NCBI GenBank assembly: GCA_900319225.1
Contig: ONNV01000007.1
Coordinates: 62,001 to 126,000 of the forward strand
Reading direction: 5' to 3'
Length of the DNA stretch: 64,000 nucleotides
Source of the DNA: an uncultured Prevotellaceae bacterium
GTDB lineage: Bacteria; Bacteroidota; Bacteroidia; Bacteroidales; Bacteroidaceae
Below, one piece after another: positions 46,834-62,493 of the stretch. Each line of letters opens with the position of its first letter. Within the stretch, counting starts at the first letter, position 1. A program made the position numbers and the translations under genes. The notes under the pieces were generated by a model, which did not search any database, was not told the DNA's origin, and saw nothing but the letters and a program-made list of their open reading frames with translations.

Positions 46834-48123
46834 ATGGAGAATACGGAGAACAAGACCGAGCGTGGACCGCTGCTTAAGGGTGACCGTGCCATATGGGCAA
46901 TGGTCATAATACTGTGCTGTATATCCCTGATTGAGGTATTCAGCGCCAGCAGCCGTCTTACATTCGGTAAAAGCAGTTTCCTGAGGCCTATCATAGGCCA
47001 CTCCCTGCATCTGGGACTTGGCCTGCTGATTATGTACGGCGTACATCTGTTCCATTACAAGTGGTACAGGATGCTGCCGGTACTGCTTGTTCCCATATCG
47101 GTGATACTGCTGGGCTACCTCTCATTCCAAGGTATGACCACGACCGGTGCCGAGCGATGGATTGACCTGGGATTTTTCCAGCTGCAACCGTCCGAGGTGG
47201 CCAAGATCGCGGTCATAATGACGGTGGCCTACTGGCTATCCAAACTCAAACCCGATGATGAACTGAGCCAGATCAACACTTTCTGGCGTATCATGCTGCT
47301 AACGGGCTTTGTATGCCTGCTCATATTCGGTGAGAACCTCTCCACTGCCATATTGCTGGCAGGTGTGGTGTTCGTGATGATGATACTGGGCGGCATAGCA
47401 TGGAAACGGATGCTGGTACTGAGCGGTCTTGTGGCTGCAGTGGGTGCCCTGATAGTGGTGATACTGCTGTTTGTCCCTGCACAGACCATACGTGACTCCA
47501 GGATAATCCCGTCACGTGCCACCACATGGCAGGCACGTCTGCAGGATTTCTTCCAGCCCGGCAATGACGGCAATCCCAGCGCCTATGAGTATGCAGTCAT
47601 GGTGGCCCCTGAGAAACCGCAGGAGACCCATGCCAACATAGCCATTGCAACCAGCAACATACTGGGTAAGGGACCAGGAAACTCCGATGAGCGTGACTAC
47701 CTGCAGGAGGCAAGCTGTGACTTCATCTACGCCATCATCATCGAGGAGCTTGGTATGGCGGGCGGATTGCTGGTGATGTTCGTATACATGATACTGCTGT
47801 TCCGTGTAGGGCGTATAGTGAAACGCTGCAAGGAGAAATATCCCGCATATCTGGCCATGGGACTGGGTATGCTGCTGGGACTGCAGGCATTCATAAACAT
47901 GTCGGTGGCTGTGGGGCTCTTCCCGGTTACCGGCCAGCCGCTGCCGCTCATAAGCAAGGGCGGAACATCGGTCATAATGACCAGTTTCTGCATAGGCATG
48001 CTGCTTGGAATAAGCAACACGCTGGACCGTGAGGCGGCAGGTGAGCAGGCTCTGGGTACTGATACTGATGTACCTGCGCCTGTGGACGGAAACGAATCTT
48101 TTGACGATATAACAGAACAATAG
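46834..48123 (+). CDS. ftsW: Septal peptidoglycan polymerase FtsW
   Basis: 429 residues, about ten membrane helices, SEDS family. ERGPLLKGDRAIWAMVIILC start, GAERWIDLGFFQLQPSEVAK, EELGMAGGLLVMFVYMILL and PVTGQPLPLISKGGTSVIMT are the usual FtsW blocks. The acidic C-terminal tail (about 25 residues) is cytoplasmic. FtsW polymerises glycan strands from lipid II together with FtsI. Confidence 0.95.
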   Translation: MENTENKTERGPLLKGDRAIWAMVIILCCISLIEVFSASSRLTFGKSSFLRPIIGHSLHLGLGLLIMYGVHLFHYKWYRMLPVLLVPISVILLGYLSFQGMTTTGAERWIDLGFFQLQPSEVAKIAVIMTVAYWLSKLKPDDELSQINTFWRIMLLTGFVCLLIFGENLSTAILLAGVVFVMMILGGIAWKRMLVLSGLVAAVGALIVVILLFVPAQTIRDSRIIPSRATTWQARLQDFFQPGNDGNPSAYEYAVMVAPEKPQETHANIAIATSNILGKGPGNSDERDYLQEASCDFIYAIIIEELGMAGGLLVMFVYMILLFRVGRIVKRCKEKYPAYLAMGLGMLLGLQAFINMSVAVGLFPVTGQPLPLISKGGTSVIMTSFCIGMLLGISNTLDREAAGEQALGTDTDVPAPVDGNESFDDITEQ

Positions 48124-48126
48124 AAT

Positions 48127-50631
48127 ATGGAGGCAAAACCCAGAATTATAATCAGTGGAGGAGGTACGGGAGGACATATTTTTCCCGCCATATCAATAGC
48201 ACATGCCGTCAAGGCTCTCAGACCCGATGCGGAGATACTGTTCGTAGGTGCCGAAGGCCGTATGGAGATGCAGCGTGTGCCGCAGGCCGGATTTGAGATA
48301 AAAGGTCTGCCCATATGCGGGTTTGACCGTAAGAATCCGCTCAAGAACATAGCTGTACTCTTCAAGATAATGCGCAGCCAGATAAAGGCACGCCGTATAA
48401 TACGTCAGTTCAAGCCTATGGTTGCAGTGGGCGTGGGCGGTTATGCCAGCGGTCCCACACTGCGTATTGCAGGTAAGATGGGTATTCCCACACTGTTGCA
48501 GGAGCAGAACTCCTATGCCGGAGTCACCAACAAGATCCTGGCCAAGAAAGCCGCTAGGATATGCGTGGCATATGACGGTATGGAGCGTTTCTTCCCCGCC
48601 GACAAGATAATCAAGACCGGCAACCCGGTACGTCCCAGCCTTACAAGCAGCCATATATCACGTAAGGATGCTACAGCCAAAATGGGTCTGGATGCATCAA
48701 AGAAAGTAGTGCTGATAATAGGCGGAAGCCTTGGCGCACGCTCCCTGAATGAGAGCGTAATGGCCAATCTGGACCTGATACGCATGTCGGACGATGTACA
48801 GTTCGTATGGCAGACCGGCAAGTTCTACTTTGAGGAGATGAAGAGACGTCTGGCCGATGAACAGCCGGTTGCGAACCTCTTCCCTGTTGAGTTCGTACAG
48901 GATATGGATCAGGCTTATGCAGCTGCCGACCTGGTGATATCACGTGCCGGTGCCGGTACCATTTCTGAGCTTTGTCTGCTTGCCAAGCCGGTAATTCTGG
49001 TGCCTTCACCCAATGTGGCCGAGGATCATCAGACCAAGAATGCCCTGGCCCTGTCAGATAAGGATGCCGCCATTCATGTACGTGACGTGGATGCCCGCAA
49101 GGAGCTTATCCCTGCCGCAATAGACCTGGTCAAGGACAAGGCACGCCTGGAGGCTCTGAGTGAGAACATACTCAAACTGGCCTATCATGATTCGGCCCAG
49201 ATAATTGCCCGTGAGGTACTTAAACTGGCCGGAATAGGCAACGGCTCACTGTCACTCAAGGATATCAAGTCGGTTTACTTTGTAGGTGCCGGTGGCATTG
49301 GCATGAGTGCTCTGGTACGCTACTTCCTGGCCCGCGGATGCCAGGTGGGCGGATATGACAAGACCTCCACGGAGCTGACATCGGCCCTGATAAAGGAGGG
49401 TGCCAGGATCACCTTTGAGGACGGAGAGGACAAGATTGACTCTTGTTTCAGGGATCCGGCATCGACACTGGTGGTCTACACACCTGCCATTCCGGCAAGC
49501 AACCGCATACTGAGCTGGTTCAATCAGAACTGCTTTGACGTGCAGAAACGCGCCCAGGTGCTGGGTACGCTGACCCGTTCGCTGGACGGCCTTTGCGTGG
49601 CAGGAACCCACGGAAAGACCACCACATCATCAATGGTCGCCCATATACTGGACGGAACCGATGAGGGCTGCAACGCATTCCTGGGCGGTATACTCAAGAA
49701 TATAGGGACCAACCTCATGATAAGCAACAAGAGCCGTCGCGTGGTGATTGAGGCCGATGAATTTGACCGGTCGTTCCACCACCTTACACCGCTGCGCACG
49801 GTCATTACGGCTGTTGATGCCGACCATCTGGATATATACGGCACCTATGAGGCATATGTGGAGAGCTTCCGCAAGTATACGTCGCTCATAAAGCCGGGCG
49901 GTGATCTGATACTGCATGTGGGCCTGGAGGAGAAGATAAAGCCGCAGCTCCAGAAAGGCGTCACTCTCTATACCTACGGTCTGGATGAGGGTACATTCCA
50001 TGCAGCCAACGTAAGGATCGGTAACGGAGAACTCAAGTTTGACTTTGTATCGCCGCTGGGCAATATATCGGATGTGGAGTTGGGAGTACCCATTCCCATC
50101 AACGTGGAGAATGCAGTGGCTGCCATGGCTATGGCTCAGCTGAGCGGTGCCGATGAGAAGGTAATTCGTGAGCGTATCGGTTCGTTCCGCGGCTGCGACC
50201 GCCGTTTTGACTTCCACGTAAAGAGGGATGACAAGGTCTATCTGAGTGACTACGCACACCATCCGGCCGAGATAAAGCAGTGCGCCCTGTCACTGCGCCA
50301 GCTCTATGCCGACCGTAAGATCACCTGTATATTCCAGCCGCATCTGTATACCCGTACCAGGGATTTCTTTGGTGAGTTTGCCGATAGCCTGTCACTCTTT
50401 GACGAGGTTTGGCTGCTGGATATCTATCCGGCCCGTGAACTGCCTATCCCCGGTGTGACAAGTGCTCTGCTGGCCGACAACATGAAACCGGGTGTATGCA
50501 AGGGCATCATCTCCAGGGACCAGGTTCCGGAGCTTGTGGAGAAGATAAAGGATGATGTTCAGGTGCTGGTTACACTGGGTGCCGGTGACCTGGAGGATTA
50601 TGTAGAAACTATAGCCAAGATCCTGAAGTGA
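48127..50631 (+). CDS. murG-murC: Fused MurG-MurC: lipid II glycosyltransferase plus UDP-MurNAc:L-alanine ligase
   Basis: 834 residues in one uninterrupted frame. Residues 1-about 368 form a complete MurG (GGGTGGH at 11-17, GVGGYASGPTLRIAGKMG, QEQNSYAGVTNKILAKKA, RAGAGTISELCLLAKPVILV), which converts lipid I to lipid II. Residues about 378-834 form a complete MurC (KSVYFVGAGGIGMSALV, GTHGKTTTSSMVA with ATP loop 493-500, DEFDRSFHHLTP, YAHHPAEIKQ, QPHLYTRTRDFF), which adds L-Ala to UDP-MurNAc. The join (LAGIGNGSLSLKD) is only about ten residues and has no start codon near it. Both halves keep their catalytic motifs. Related genomes normally carry two genes here, so a true fusion or a sequence error at the old stop must be separated. 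The next gene overlaps by four bases. Confidence 0.9.
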   Translation: MEAKPRIIISGGGTGGHIFPAISIAHAVKALRPDAEILFVGAEGRMEMQRVPQAGFEIKGLPICGFDRKNPLKNIAVLFKIMRSQIKARRIIRQFKPMVAVGVGGYASGPTLRIAGKMGIPTLLQEQNSYAGVTNKILAKKAARICVAYDGMERFFPADKIIKTGNPVRPSLTSSHISRKDATAKMGLDASKKVVLIIGGSLGARSLNESVMANLDLIRMSDDVQFVWQTGKFYFEEMKRRLADEQPVANLFPVEFVQDMDQAYAAADLVISRAGAGTISELCLLAKPVILVPSPNVAEDHQTKNALALSDKDAAIHVRDVDARKELIPAAIDLVKDKARLEALSENILKLAYHDSAQIIAREVLKLAGIGNGSLSLKDIKSVYFVGAGGIGMSALVRYFLARGCQVGGYDKTSTELTSALIKEGARITFEDGEDKIDSCFRDPASTLVVYTPAIPASNRILSWFNQNCFDVQKRAQVLGTLTRSLDGLCVAGTHGKTTTSSMVAHILDGTDEGCNAFLGGILKNIGTNLMISNKSRRVVIEADEFDRSFHHLTPLRTVITAVDADHLDIYGTYEAYVESFRKYTSLIKPGGDLILHVGLEEKIKPQLQKGVTLYTYGLDEGTFHAANVRIGNGELKFDFVSPLGNISDVELGVPIPINVENAVAAMAMAQLSGADEKVIRERIGSFRGCDRRFDFHVKRDDKVYLSDYAHHPAEIKQCALSLRQLYADRKITCIFQPHLYTRTRDFFGEFADSLSLFDEVWLLDIYPARELPIPGVTSALLADNMKPGVCKGIISRDQVPELVEKIKDDVQVLVTLGAGDLEDYVETIAKILK

Positions 50632-51365
50632 TAAAGAAGATCCTATCCATATTGGCAGTCCTGGCGTTTGCCGGTTATCTGGTCTACTCTGCGGTGGCCA
50701 TGACTGACAGACATGAGGATATCCGTATATGCCGGGGCATAGACCTGCATATATCGGACAGCCTGGACTACGGACTGATTGATGGGGATATGGTGACATC
50801 ACTTTTGCAGGAAAGGGGCTTGGATCCGGTAGGACTCTCCCTTGACAGGATTGACATTGAGGGGATAGAATCCGTGCTGCTGCGCCATCCGCTTGTGGGG
50901 CGTGCACAGTGTTACAAGACAGCCGGTGACATGCTCAGGATAAACATATCGGGCAAGGTCCCGCTGGTACGCGTGCTCAACAACCGCGGTCAGGATTTCT
51001 ATGTGGACAGCCGCGGCGAGATCCTTACCCAGCACTCCCTGGCAGTTCAGCTGCCTGTGGCTACGGGATATATCGACCGTAAGTTTGCATCGGACGATCT
51101 TCTGGATGTGGTGAACGCCATAGACCGTTCGGAGTTCTGGAAGGCTCAGGTGGAGCAGATAAACGTGACACGTGAGGGTCAGATAGAGCTGGTACCCCGT
51201 GTGGGTGACCACCTGCTAATACTGGGAACTGCCCAGGATGTGGAGAACAAGCTGAAACGTCTGGAGAACTTCTACCGTAAGGGCCTGGACAATGTAGGCT
51301 GGAACAAGTACCGCTCCATAAGCGTGGCTTATGAGAATCAGGTAGTATGTAAGAAACGAAAATAA
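50628..51365 (+). CDS. ftsQ: Cell division protein FtsQ
   Basis: 245 residues from GTG at 50628 (GTGA overlap with the fused gene). One membrane helix near the N-terminus (about 4-24). A POTRA-like domain follows (about 33-105), then the FtsQ beta domain with VPLVRVLNNRGQDFYVDSRG and ITPQ-like ILTQHSLAVQLPVATGYI. The family is poorly conserved; the position before ftsA and the motifs make the call firm. It recruits FtsL-type partners to the septum. Confidence 0.88.
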   Translation: MIKKILSILAVLAFAGYLVYSAVAMTDRHEDIRICRGIDLHISDSLDYGLIDGDMVTSLLQERGLDPVGLSLDRIDIEGIESVLLRHPLVGRAQCYKTAGDMLRINISGKVPLVRVLNNRGQDFYVDSRGEILTQHSLAVQLPVATGYIDRKFASDDLLDVVNAIDRSEFWKAQVEQINVTREGQIELVPRVGDHLLILGTAQDVENKLKRLENFYRKGLDNVGWNKYRSISVAYENQVVCKKRK

Positions 51366-55889: not shown

Positions 55890-57557
55890 CTACTTCTTAG
55901 CCTCAGCGTCCTTATTACGAATCTCCACGCGTTTGATCTTACCGCTGATAGTCTTAGGCAACTCCTCCACGAACTCCACCACACGCGGATACTTATAAGG
56001 AGCCGAAACCTTCTTGACATGATCCTGGATCTCCTTGATAAGAGCCTCCTTATCGGGATAATCCTTATACTCCTTAGCCAGAATGATGGTAGCCTTGACT
56101 ACCTGACCGCGAACCTCATCAGGGACGCCGGTAACGGCGCACTCCACAACTGCGGGGTGTGTCATCAGGGCGCTCTCAACCTCGAACGGTCCTATGCGGT
56201 AACCGGAGCTCTTGATAACGTCATCAGTGCGGCCTACGAACCAGTAGTAACCGTCACCGTCACGCCATGCAACATCGCCGGTATGGTAGATTCCGTTGTT
56301 GTGTACGGTCTTGGTGAGTTCGGGATTGTGGTAATACTCCTCAAACAGACCAAGCGGCAGGCGCTTATCGGTATGCAGGATTATCTCACCGCTCTCACCG
56401 TCCTCGGCGGAACGGCCGTCATTGGTGAGCAGGTCCATGTCATATGCGGGGTTGGGCACACCCAGTGAACCGGGTTTGGGAGTCATCCAGGGGAATGTGC
56501 CGATGGTCATGGCAGTCTCGGTCTGGCCGAATCCCTCATGGATATCCAGGCCTGTATGCTCTTTCCAGAACTCAAATACGCTGGGGTTGAGCGGCTCACC
56601 TGCAGTGGTGCAGTACTTGAGTGCGCTCAGGTCATACTGGCTCAGGTCCTCACGAATCAGATAACGGTAGATTGTGGGGGGAGCGCAGAATGATGTAACG
56701 CGGTACTTGGCCATTGCAGCCAGTATGTTGGCGGGAGTGAACTTCTCGTGGTCATAAACGAACACTGCTGCACCTGACAGCCACTGTCCGTAGAGCTTGC
56801 CCCATACGGCCTTGCCCCAACCGGTATCGGCTACGGTAAGATGCAGGCTCTGCTCATTTACGTTGTGCCAGTACTTGGCGGTAACGATATGTCCCAGAGG
56901 ATAGAGAAAATTGTGTGCCACCATCTTGGGGTTACCGCTTGAACCGGAAGTGAAGTATAGCAGTGATATGTCATGATTGTCATTTACATGCTCGGGGCGA
57001 TGGAACTCAGGTGCGTTTTTCATACCCTCATCCATGCTGTACCACCCGTCCTTGTTGTATGAACCGGTGGCAACGCGGATCTTTACCGACGGAGCATCCT
57101 TGAGACAGTCATTCACATGCTGTATCATGATGGGCTCATCGGCACTTACAATCATCTTGATCTGGGCTGAGTTGGCGCGGTAGATGAGGTCCTTGGGGGT
57201 GAGCAGGTGGGTTGCGGGGATTGCCACGGCACCCAGCTTGTGCAGAGCCACGATTGAGAACCAGAACTCGGCGCGGCGCTTGAGCATCATCATGACGCAG
57301 TCACCCTTGCCAATACCCAGTGACTGGTAGAATGCGGCCACCTGGTCTGATTTGCGCTTTATGTCGGCAAATGTATAACGGACCTCGGCGCCCTCGTCAT
57401 TGGTCCACAGAAGGGCAAGCTTGTCGGGGTTGGTACGGGCCCACTCATCGACTACGTCGTAGCCGAAATTGAAGTTGTCCGGTACTATTATCTCAAAATT
57501 CTTCTGGAAATCCTCCAGTGAGTCAAAATTGACTTTCTTCAGGTATTTCTCTAACAT
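55890..57557 (-). CDS. Acyl-CoA synthetase (AMP-forming, acetyl/medium-chain type)
   Basis: 555 residues, ANL superfamily. LLYFTSGSSGNPKMVAHN is the ATP loop, GEPLNPSVFEFW and GFGQTETAMTIG are core motifs, YHTGDVAWRDGDGYYWFVGR the hinge, and PKTISGKIKRVEIR carries the catalytic Lys. The VGRTDDVIKSSGYRIGPFEV form resembles acetyl-CoA and medium-chain (ACSM-like) ligases. It activates a carboxylic acid to its CoA thioester. It is last in a four-gene minus-strand operon, five bases after a cupin regulator that may sense its substrate or product. Confidence 0.88.
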   Translation of the reverse strand: MLEKYLKKVNFDSLEDFQKNFEIIVPDNFNFGYDVVDEWARTNPDKLALLWTNDEGAEVRYTFADIKRKSDQVAAFYQSLGIGKGDCVMMMLKRRAEFWFSIVALHKLGAVAIPATHLLTPKDLIYRANSAQIKMIVSADEPIMIQHVNDCLKDAPSVKIRVATGSYNKDGWYSMDEGMKNAPEFHRPEHVNDNHDISLLYFTSGSSGNPKMVAHNFLYPLGHIVTAKYWHNVNEQSLHLTVADTGWGKAVWGKLYGQWLSGAAVFVYDHEKFTPANILAAMAKYRVTSFCAPPTIYRYLIREDLSQYDLSALKYCTTAGEPLNPSVFEFWKEHTGLDIHEGFGQTETAMTIGTFPWMTPKPGSLGVPNPAYDMDLLTNDGRSAEDGESGEIILHTDKRLPLGLFEEYYHNPELTKTVHNNGIYHTGDVAWRDGDGYYWFVGRTDDVIKSSGYRIGPFEVESALMTHPAVVECAVTGVPDEVRGQVVKATIILAKEYKDYPDKEALIKEIQDHVKKVSAPYKYPRVVEFVEELPKTISGKIKRVEIRNKDAEAKK

Positions 57558-57562
57558 GCTTA

Positions 57563-58120
57563 TCAGAATATGATGGCAAGGAACCTTGCGGGCTCGCCGT
57601 TAAGTGCCCTCATGCCATGGGGCTGTGTTGAATCAAAGTATATGCTGTCTCCGGGGTTGAGTGTGAGTTCCTTGCCGCCGATGCTCAGGAGCAGTGTGCC
57701 TTTGAGTACCAGGTTGAACTCCTGACCCTCATGTGAGTTCAGGTGCATCACATTCTCCATCTTGGGATCTACCGTTACGATAAAGGGTGATGCCTTGGCA
57801 TGCTTGAATCCCATGGCCAGAGCCTGATACTTATATGCTTTCTGACGCTCTATTACTGGACCTTTGCCCTTGCGTACCAGCCAGTAGCTGCTCATGTTAG
57901 GGGCGTCGCCTGCAAAGAGTTCAAGAGGCTCCACACCGTACACACCGGCTGCGTTGCAGAGGAAATTCATCGGAATATCCGATTCACCTGACTCATAGCG
58001 TTTCAACTCATCGGGGGTGATGCCGCACTTCTGTGCCACCTCCTCAACGGTCATTTCCAGATCCTCGCGCAGTCCGCGAAGACGCATGGCCATCTGTTTG
58101 ATCTGTTCGTTTATCTCCAT
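57563..58120 (-). CDS. XRE-type regulator with C-terminal cupin domain (I)
   Basis: 185 residues. Helix-turn-helix about 10-65 (LRGLREDLEMTVEEVAQKCG, then ELKRYESGESDIP). Cupin about 115-185 (LNSHEGQEFNLVLKGTLLLS and LNPGDSIYFDSTQPHGMRAL) with His, Glu and His in metal-ligand positions. Such proteins usually sense a small metabolite and control adjacent genes. The start lies one base from the stop of the upstream ligase. Close in layout to the regulator at 59784. Confidence 0.88.
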   Translation of the reverse strand: MEINEQIKQMAMRLRGLREDLEMTVEEVAQKCGITPDELKRYESGESDIPMNFLCNAAGVYGVEPLELFAGDAPNMSSYWLVRKGKGPVIERQKAYKYQALAMGFKHAKASPFIVTVDPKMENVMHLNSHEGQEFNLVLKGTLLLSIGGKELTLNPGDSIYFDSTQPHGMRALNGEPARFLAIIF

Positions 58121-58121
58121 A

Positions 58122-59774
58122 TCAAATAACCTCTATTCCTTTCTCCTCGCAAAGCTTCAGACTGAGCTCACGAAGTTTGAATTTCTGAATCTTGCCGCTA
58201 CCTGTCAGCGGGTATTCCTTAACAAAGAATACGTATTTAGGTATCTTGTATCGGGCTATCTTGCCGCGGCACCAGTCACGAACCTCCTCCTCGGTGAGTT
58301 TTGCGCCCTCATCCAGTATGATGAATGCGCCAACCTCCTCGCCGTATTTCTTGGAGGGAACGCCGGCAACCTGTACGTCACGTACGCCGGGCAGGTGGTA
58401 GAGGAACTCCTCAATCTCACGCGGGTAGATGTTCTCACCGCCGCGGATGATCATATCCTTGATACGGCCGGTTATGCGGTAGTTGCCGTTCTCGTCCATG
58501 ACACCCAGGTCTCCTGAGTGCAGGTATCCGTTCTCATCGATAACCTCGGCTGTGGCCTCGGGGTTCTTGTAGTAACCCTTCATCACGTTGAATCCCTTGC
58601 AGCACATCTCTCCCTGAGTACCTACGGGAACCTCCTTATTGGTCTCGGGATCCAGTACCTTGACGTCAACGAACTCATAGTCACGTCCTACGGTGGTGTA
58701 ACGTACCTCATCGGGATCGTCTATGCGGGTCTGGCTCATACCGGGTGATGACTCGGTCAAGCCGTATACGCTGGTTACATGCAGGAACATCTTCTCTTCA
58801 ACCTTGCGCATCAGCTCGATAGGGCAGAGTGAACCGGCCATGATACCTGTGCGCAGGCATGAGAGGTCAAACATATCGAACATGGGGTGGTTGAGCTCGG
58901 CTATGAACATGGTAGGCACGCCGTACAGGGCTGTGCAGCGCTCCTTGTGGACCGATGCCAGCGTAACCAGCGGGTCAAAACGCTCAACCAGGACCTCGGT
59001 GCAACCGTGTGTGAGGCAGTTCATTGTGGCAAGTACCACACCGAAACAGTGGAACAGGGGCACGCATACGCAGAGCTTGTCATCCTGCGTGAATTTCATG
59101 TGCTCTCCTGTAAGGAAACCATCGTTTGCTATATTGTAATGGGTAAGCATGACTCCCTTGGGGAATCCTGTGGTACCCGATGTATACTGCATGTTCACTA
59201 CGTCATGGCAGGTCACAGACTTGCGCAGACGCTGGAACTCATCATCCTCAGTGTTCTCACCCAGCAGCAGGATCTCGGCTGTGTTGTACATGCCGCGGTA
59301 TTTCTCCTGGCCTATGTAAACCACATTCTTGAGTCTGGGGAACCTTTTGCTCTCCAGGTGTCCGCGCTCGCACTCACGCAGCTCAGGCAGCATGGTGTAG
59401 GCCATGTCCACGTAGTTGCTCTCCCAAGTACCGTCTGTAAGGCAGAGGGTGTGCATATCGGAGTTCTCAACCAGATACTCAAGCTCGTTCTGCTTGTAGT
59501 TGGTGTTTACTGTGATGCATACGGCTCCTATCTTGGCGCATGCATAAAGGAATGTGAGCCAATCGGGCACGTTCTGAGCCCACAGACCCACGTGGCTGCC
59601 CTTGGTAACACCTATCGCAATCAGGCCGCGGGCCATATCGTCAACCCTTTCGTTGAACTGTTTCCAGGTAAAACGCAGGTCGCGGTCAGAATATACTATG
59701 TATTCCTTATCGGGAGTAACCTGAGCCCAATGCTCAAGCCAGTCTCCAAGTGTTCTTTCTGATAACTGGTACAT
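58122..59774 (-). CDS. Acyl-CoA synthetase (AMP-forming, fatty-acyl type)
   Basis: 550 residues, ANL superfamily. [20 protein letters not shown] is the ATP loop, [13 protein letters not shown] the core motif, [20 protein letters not shown] the hinge, [20 protein letters not shown] the C-terminal start, and [16 protein letters not shown] the catalytic Lys region. It resembles FadD/AtoE-type ligases that take medium or long acyl chains. It is not a recent copy of the ligase at 55890; the two belong to different subgroups. It sits nine bases after one regulator and one base before the next. Confidence 0.9.
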
Positions 59775-59783
59775 ACGCTTTTA

Positions 59784-60359
59784 TCAGATGGGAGTGTAAA
59801 CGACTGCAAGGATACGTGCTTTCTGGCCGTTGTAGCCATGCACGTGATGCTTTACGATTGAATCGTAGTAGATGCTGTCACCTTTCTTGAGAACGTAGTT
59901 GTTCTTACCGTAGTTGATCTCAACCTCACCCTCAAGGACGTAGATGAACTCCTCGCCCTCATGGGTTGAGAGGTCGAACTTGGGATCCTGCTGCGGGAGG
60001 ATGTCAATTACGAACGGCTCCAAATGACGGTTGTCCTTACCCTCTGAGAGAGAGTGATAAATCATGTTTTCATGACCTTCTGAACCGTGGTTGGAGAACC
60101 TTACGCTCTCGTGCTCCTCATTGGCACGGCTTACAACGGCACCAACGCTCTGCTGGTCATCCAGGAAAGTACCCAGACGGACACCTAGTACGCGGGCAAT
60201 CTTGATTAGAGGAGCCAGGCCCGGCAGGGGACCGTCATTCTCAATTGCCTTGACTTGTTCTACTGAGAGCTGCGCACGCTCGGCCAGCACCTCAATCTCC
60301 ATCTGTTTTGACTCCCTCAGGGAGCGGATTTTCTTACCTACAGGTACTTTTGAATTCAT
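59784..60359 (-). CDS. XRE-type regulator with C-terminal cupin domain (II)
   Basis: 191 residues from the ATG at 60359; a longer frame reaching 60497 runs through the promoter region and is rejected. Helix-turn-helix about 8-65 (IRSLRESKQMEIEVLAERAQ, LSVEQVKAIEND). Cupin about 120-190 (LSTHEGEEFIYVLEGEVEIN, LKKGDSIYYDSIVKHHVHGY). The layout equals the regulator at 57563, so regulator-ligase units appear twice. First gene of the operon. Confidence 0.88.
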   Translation of the reverse strand: MNSKVPVGKKIRSLRESKQMEIEVLAERAQLSVEQVKAIENDGPLPGLAPLIKIARVLGVRLGTFLDDQQSVGAVVSRANEEHESVRFSNHGSEGHENMIYHSLSEGKDNRHLEPFVIDILPQQDPKFDLSTHEGEEFIYVLEGEVEINYGKNNYVLKKGDSIYYDSIVKHHVHGYNGQKARILAVVYTPI

Positions 60360-60400
60360 GATTTCTGTATTTTTATGCGGAATGTTCCTATTTTTCGCGG

Positions 60401-60408
60401 CAAAATTA
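60401..60408 (-). promoter_or_regulatory. -7 box of the regulator/ligase operon
   Basis: Minus-strand TAATTTTG, 42 bases before the start. The -33 element is not clear. Confidence 0.4.
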
Positions 60409-60435
60409 CAAAAAGCATCCGATATGCGCGCGTAA

Positions 60436-62493
<2,058 letters not shown>

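Follow-up and report, generated by a model that had tools for sequence, protein, structure and literature searches.

The division and cell-wall gene cluster in the window (the whole 64,000-nucleotide stretch of DNA that was analysed) encodes MurG and MurC, two cell-wall enzymes that are usually separate, as one protein. The gene is a single frame of 834 codons plus TGA at 48127..50631 on the forward strand, with an ATG start in the ORF list and its translation. We consider it very probable that its product is one bifunctional enzyme, about 90 kDa in size, in which MurC would be tethered to the membrane-bound MurG at 1:1. Five Pfam domains follow one another within the protein: Glyco_transf_28 (PF03033, residues 7-146) and Glyco_tran_28_C (PF04101, residues 194-347), then Mur_ligase (PF01225, residues 383-484), Mur_ligase_M (PF08245, residues 491-670) and Mur_ligase_C (PF02875, residues 692-818). 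ORF, Pfam and NCBIfam analyses agree with the original prediction of a complete MurG followed by a complete MurC in one 834-codon frame. No bifunctional MurG-MurC model is among the best 25 of 30 NCBIfam matches to the protein.

The MurG half (residues 1-366; 48127..49224, forward strand) is identified by Pfam, NCBIfam, phmmer and its predicted fold. With the NCBIfam murG model TIGR01133 it reaches 284 bits over residues 5-362, above the cut-off of 250. Its best solved-structure matches in phmmer are 3s2u and 1f0k, the same structures that Foldseek matches to the predicted fold. The GGGTGGH loop, which we take to be the N-terminal mark of MurG, lies at residues 11-17; its columns are invariant in 31 of 31 fused rows of alignment A1, and H17 is invariant in a wider 31-row alignment, A3. 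With both GT28 domains and an equivalog model above cut-off, this half classifies by its sequence as MurG.

The MurC half (residues 379-834; 49261..50628, forward strand) is followed by the TGA stop at 50629..50631. By sequence, its best solved-structure matches are MurC 1gqq and others, and Foldseek matches its predicted structure to the MurC folds of E. coli and H. influenzae. It carries a GTHGKTT P-loop at residues 493-499. The GTHGKT columns (residues 493-498) are invariant in alignment A1, as are G493, H495, G496, K497 and T498 in alignment A3; we regard this ATP loop as a mark of Mur ligases. All three Mur-ligase domains together with the loop identify the half as a predicted MurC. Its best-scoring NCBIfam model by E-value, murC TIGR01082, gives 327.7 bits over residues 383-827, slightly below the curated cut-off of 335.1. 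None of nine genomes of the genus that we tested passes this cut-off. Because the nine include three with a separate MurC, the low score looks like divergence of the lineage rather than decay caused by fusion. MurC of this genus, fused or separate, falls just under the cut-off in nine of nine genomes, and model-based annotation may leave it unnamed.

The two halves are joined at about residues 367-378 (49225..49260, forward strand), as placed by the translation, the 31-gene alignment and the AlphaFold2 secondary structure. In the AlphaFold2 model, built from a 31-row alignment, the last MurG helix spans residues 356-367 and the first MurC strand residues 382-386, with coil between them except for three residues modelled as helical. 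Mean pLDDT is 90.3 and falls to 74 in the linker block 371-380; pTM is 0.63. High pLDDT with low pTM would fit two well-predicted halves whose mutual placement is uncertain. The linker is the least constrained part of the gene and is variable in sequence. In a 20-genome clade, dN/dS is 0.059 for MurG residues 1-350, 0.179 for linker residues 367-377 and 0.055 for MurC residues 393-834; over all 31 fused genes the values are 0.080, 0.310 and 0.090. These values come from simple pairwise counting with synonymous sites near saturation and are rough. Judged by these ratios, the linker evolves as coding sequence under less constraint than either enzyme. The intact main motifs and linker of roughly ten residues that had been proposed both held up, the motif columns being invariant and the linker measuring about 11 residues.

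The fused gene lies in a cluster with the order RsmH, PBP-type protein, MurE, MraY, MurD, FtsW-type protein, fused gene, an ORF in the ftsQ position, FtsA and FtsZ. The best models for the PBP-type protein are below cut-off, as is TIGR02614, the best match of the FtsW-type protein (46834..48123, forward strand). The fused gene starts 3 bases after the FtsW-type stop. The downstream ORF (50628..51365, forward strand; from the ORF list) is assigned to ftsQ by position only and has no NCBIfam match at E <= 1e-10. Farther along, on the reverse strand at 55890-60497, two AMP-forming acyl-CoA-synthetase-like ORFs are each accompanied by a small regulator ORF of helix-turn-helix plus cupin-like type. 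The division cluster lies on one side of this block and a gyrB-like gene, at 60517, on the other; the acyl-CoA-synthetase-like, regulator and gyrB-like labels were read by eye from the ORF list.

The fusion is the prevailing state in its genus. All 37 genomes have a MurG/MurC match. In 31 of them a stop-free frame covers all 834 residues, give or take a few at the ends, and the remaining six (G011, G015, G016, G017, G022 and G024) have separate genes. Stop-to-stop ORF analysis of the loci agreed in every case, fused (31) and split (six). The eight genomes that are at least 90% complete include both states, five fused (G001, G007, G019, G027, G036) and three split (G017, G022, G024). The search for the same architecture in related genomes that had been recommended therefore returned uninterrupted frames in most of the genus, and the outcome named as fatal to the idea, close relatives that are all split, did not appear. 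The 30 other fused proteins are 68-91% identical to that of the window. Random codons of the same composition would stay open over 14 codons with a chance of 0.49, about one half, so an open junction in a lone genome means little; its retention across divergent genomes is the evidence. In the six split members the two genes lie in different frames, and the nearest candidate murC start falls between 17 bases before and 11 bases after the murG end. Genes that nearly touch in this way bear out the suggestion that the fusion is easily obtained from neighbours.

The fused gene appears to be the cell's source of both enzymes. When nine genomes of the genus, eight of them at least 90% complete, were searched with family models, each gave a single MurG match and a single full-length MurC match, with no second copy of either found. 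The remaining matches to the MurC model were weaker and partial; those in the window genome correspond to MurD, to MurE, to the MurF-Alr gene and to another Mur-ligase-like ORF. For this genome alone, a 17-contig draft that is 84.7% complete, a second copy may lie in the missing part.

Outside the genus the fusion is scattered. Among the matches listed for 301 genomes of the family, no stop-free span of both enzymes comes from another genus, and 18 loci from other genera of the family (L032-L044, L052-L056) were all split by ORF check. A search of 295 genomes of the order returned at least five outside the genus with a full-span stop-free frame, in four families (G507, G511, G366, G401 and G502), all confirmed as single ORFs. 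In a phylum sample of 395 genomes, among the matches listed, only the window genome has such a frame. Three of 80 named loci are fused (L057, L100 and L127, the contig of L127 ending inside MurC); L057, L147 and L148 were dropped as repeats of L013, L141 and L143, and L002, a MurD region, was dropped from the ORF counts. Large open-frame values beside separate MurG and MurC matches were considered as further fusions and rejected, since all 14 fetched loci proved to be separate genes: the five family loci L052-L056 and the nine loci L184-L192 (eight from the phylum sample, one from the order sample). The open-frame length column seems to join neighbouring matches.

Within the families concerned, frequencies differ. 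MurG and MurC share one ORF in 12 of 45 genomes of f91, the family of G507, all 12 confirmed; ten are full-span matches, and in G1002 and G1018 the MurC match lies in two pieces inside one ORF. The open-frame check applied to six genomes of this family yielded these two fusions and four split loci (G1014, G1005, G1027, G1028). G1018 carries, on a different contig, a further copy that is split; contamination in this genome is 6%, and its fused copy may be foreign. The fusion is present in both genomes of f86, the family of G401, and in one of three genomes of the family of G511. Confirmed MurG-MurC fusions thus occur in five Bacteroidales families, that of the window included. Two further features of f91 concern MurC itself. 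In G1002, G1005, G1018, G1029 and G1032 a gap of about 70-150 bases interrupts the MurC match near model position 620, which suggests an insertion in their MurC; in G1002, G1005 and G1018 the broken match stays within one MurC ORF. The MurC of G1027 (L201) is separate from MurG and occupies an ORF of unusual length, 754 aa.

Tree analyses point to repeated changes between the fused and split states. On a 61-row MurG plus MurC tree the fused/split label needs eight changes, seven of them forced by starred branches; this tree was made by a quick method without a mixture model and overstates support where branches are long. A 44-row mixture-model tree, which left out L100 and L081, needs seven changes, four of them forced; six f91 fusions of the ORF check are in no tree. 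Each change could be a gain or a loss; since most of the sampled Bacteroidota are split, we infer that gains are the likelier. The stop-free frames in the four other Bacteroidales families apparently arose from separate fusions. In the best 61-row tree, one clade holds 29 of the fused genomes of the genus, and G013 and G008, also fused, stand apart. A single fused group was not rejected (AU test, 36 rows, p = 0.44), so that one or two fusion events in the genus are both compatible with the data. A mixed alignment of separate MurG and MurC rows (A2) misplaced about 80 MurC residues onto MurG and was not used. The MurG-MurC regions of L100, titled Sphingomonadales, and L112, titled Phycisphaerales, adjoin rows titled Bacteroidota in a tree without a proper outgroup (L130 was left out as short and L170 as a duplicate); both are possibly mislabelled or contaminated MAGs.

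From these observations we propose the following model. The short stop/start boundary between murG and murC, adjacent genes of the dcw cluster, would have been lost, and the fusion would then have spread by descent, after one or two events in the genus and independently in other families of the Bacteroidales. The N-terminal half, the only MurG found, would add GlcNAc to lipid I at the inner face of the membrane, and the C-terminal half, the only full-length MurC found, would ligate L-Ala to UDP-MurNAc in the cytoplasm. The linker between them, flexible and about 11 residues long, should let each half fold and work alone. If the protein stays whole, the join would keep MurC at the membrane site of MurG and in equal amount. 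No hand-over of product between the two active sites is envisaged. MurD, MurE, MurF and MraY act between MurC, which makes UDP-MurNAc-L-Ala, and MurG, which uses lipid I (an established pathway, also described in PMC6420597 and PMC4929429). Because the two steps are not consecutive, the channelling of precursors that had been suggested is unlikely in the strict sense; co-localisation through the fusion is plausible.

Whether co-localisation benefits the cell is a distinct question. Fusion of MurG to MurC may have occurred repeatedly in Bacteroidales, and been retained, for the advantage of tethering the first ligase to the last, membrane-bound step, which would make the fusion a recurrent natural sign of a MurG-scaffolded precursor complex; we hold this adaptive account to be possible, though on the doubtful side. 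We give even chances to the explanation that the same bifunctional protein arose by a join without advantage, boundary loss being easy and tolerated in a packed cluster, where two independently folding enzymes would accept fusion and drift could carry it to fixation. The near-contact of murG and murC in the six split members agrees with a neutral origin, as does the presence of exactly one stop between the genes in 24 of 45 named loci that have both in one frame, a set selected for similarity and including the fused L100. The relaxed, variable linker and the persistence of separate genes in six members of the genus point the same way. Against neutrality, fusions recur in separate lineages and are kept in 31 of 37 genomes of the genus, 12 of 45 of f91 and two of two of f86. 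Recurrence alone is no proof of selection, because adjacency gives every lineage the same opportunity. Between a useful tether and a tolerated accident of adjacency, we lean slightly toward neutrality.

Both accounts suppose one uncut protein. MurG and MurC could instead be freed from one mRNA frame, by translation starting internally near the junction or by linker cleavage, which we judge improbable. The short linker is modelled by AlphaFold2 mostly as coil, and an ATG, GTG or TTG occurs somewhere between aligned residues 366 and 387 in 18 of the 31 fused genes (ATG in three). However, no single junction position has a start-type codon in more than six of the 31; the recurrent case, GTG at aligned residue 386 in six genes, is inside the first MurC strand. 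The window gene has no in-frame ATG, GTG or TTG from residue 366 to 387, in line with the absence of a start codon noted in the original prediction. Its nearest non-standard candidate is CTG at residue 375, and the next in-frame ATG, at residue 393, lies inside the GxGGIGM motif of MurC. L029, in which the motif differs, is in the junction listing but outside its analysis; the start-codon and dN/dS analyses took in all 31 genes. Loss of a stop codon through faulty assembly or sequencing, conceivable in a draft of 17 contigs and 84.7% completeness, has a negligible chance and is for practical purposes ruled out by the same open frame in 30 other genomes of divergent sequence.

A single bifunctional enzyme that holds MurC to MurG would test, by a natural covalent link, the proposal that MurG acts as an oligomeric scaffold for a cytoplasmic precursor complex, as put forward in PMC6420597. 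The genus contains members both with and without the fusion, and the effect of the tether is directly comparable between them. Should the repeated fusion be a product of selection, it would speak for an organisation that brings together the non-consecutive first and last steps; if it is neutral, it would be a warning against taking gene fusion as evidence of channelling. As read from the genomes, the gene is real, conserved and, by prediction, bifunctional; its parts are ordinary and its kind known, and the repeated fusion in Bacteroidales is of modest interest.

We take C. gilvus, the named example in the literature, to be Cellulomonas gilvus, an actinomycete. MurG-MurC fusions were reported in 2016, with C. 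gilvus (murG/murC) among the actinomycetes in the legend of figure 3 (PMC4929429), and MurG and MurC were listed among known fused pairs in 2019 (PMC6420597); the novelty implied for the architecture falls away on these accessible passages. As there described, those fusions join the same two enzymes from neighbouring division and cell-wall cluster genes in the order murG/murC. The named example is an actinomycete, known here from its description and not its sequence, whereas ours is from Bacteroidota. The available parts of both papers name no Bacteroidota for MurG-MurC and mention bacteroidetes for MurE-MurF. In the portions of the literature available we found no description of a MurG-MurC fusion in Bacteroidota, including its recurrence and retention within Bacteroidales, a negative of this kind being no proof of absence. 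Two candidate precedents, as far as their available text goes, were set aside: the "fused MurG" of PMC4973528 concerns Alg13/Alg14-like proteins, and murG-murC2-murC1 of Frankia (PMC7231273) is an operon, not a fusion.

Other Mur fusions offer parallels. MurE-MurF of Bordetella pertussis likewise places two Mur enzymes in one chain, and is described as elongated, flexible and interacting with MurG (PMC6420597, in the text available); MurE-MurF linkers are put at about 20 residues in the corresponding part of PMC4929429. Unlike MurG and MurC, MurE and MurF catalyse consecutive steps. MurC-Ddl (NCBIfam NF011171) also fuses MurC to another precursor enzyme, with MurC N-terminal in that model and C-terminal in the window protein, which reaches 195 bits where the cut-off is 1015 and covers profile positions 6-440 of 809, the MurC part only. 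The window genome itself, on a contig outside the window (G000 contig C15:172374-174842; L178:475-2943), encodes an 822-aa MurF-Alr that scores 1257 bits against a cut-off of 804 with NF008897. Like the MurG-MurC gene it fuses a Mur ligase to another enzyme, here as a curated fusion with different partners and at a different locus.
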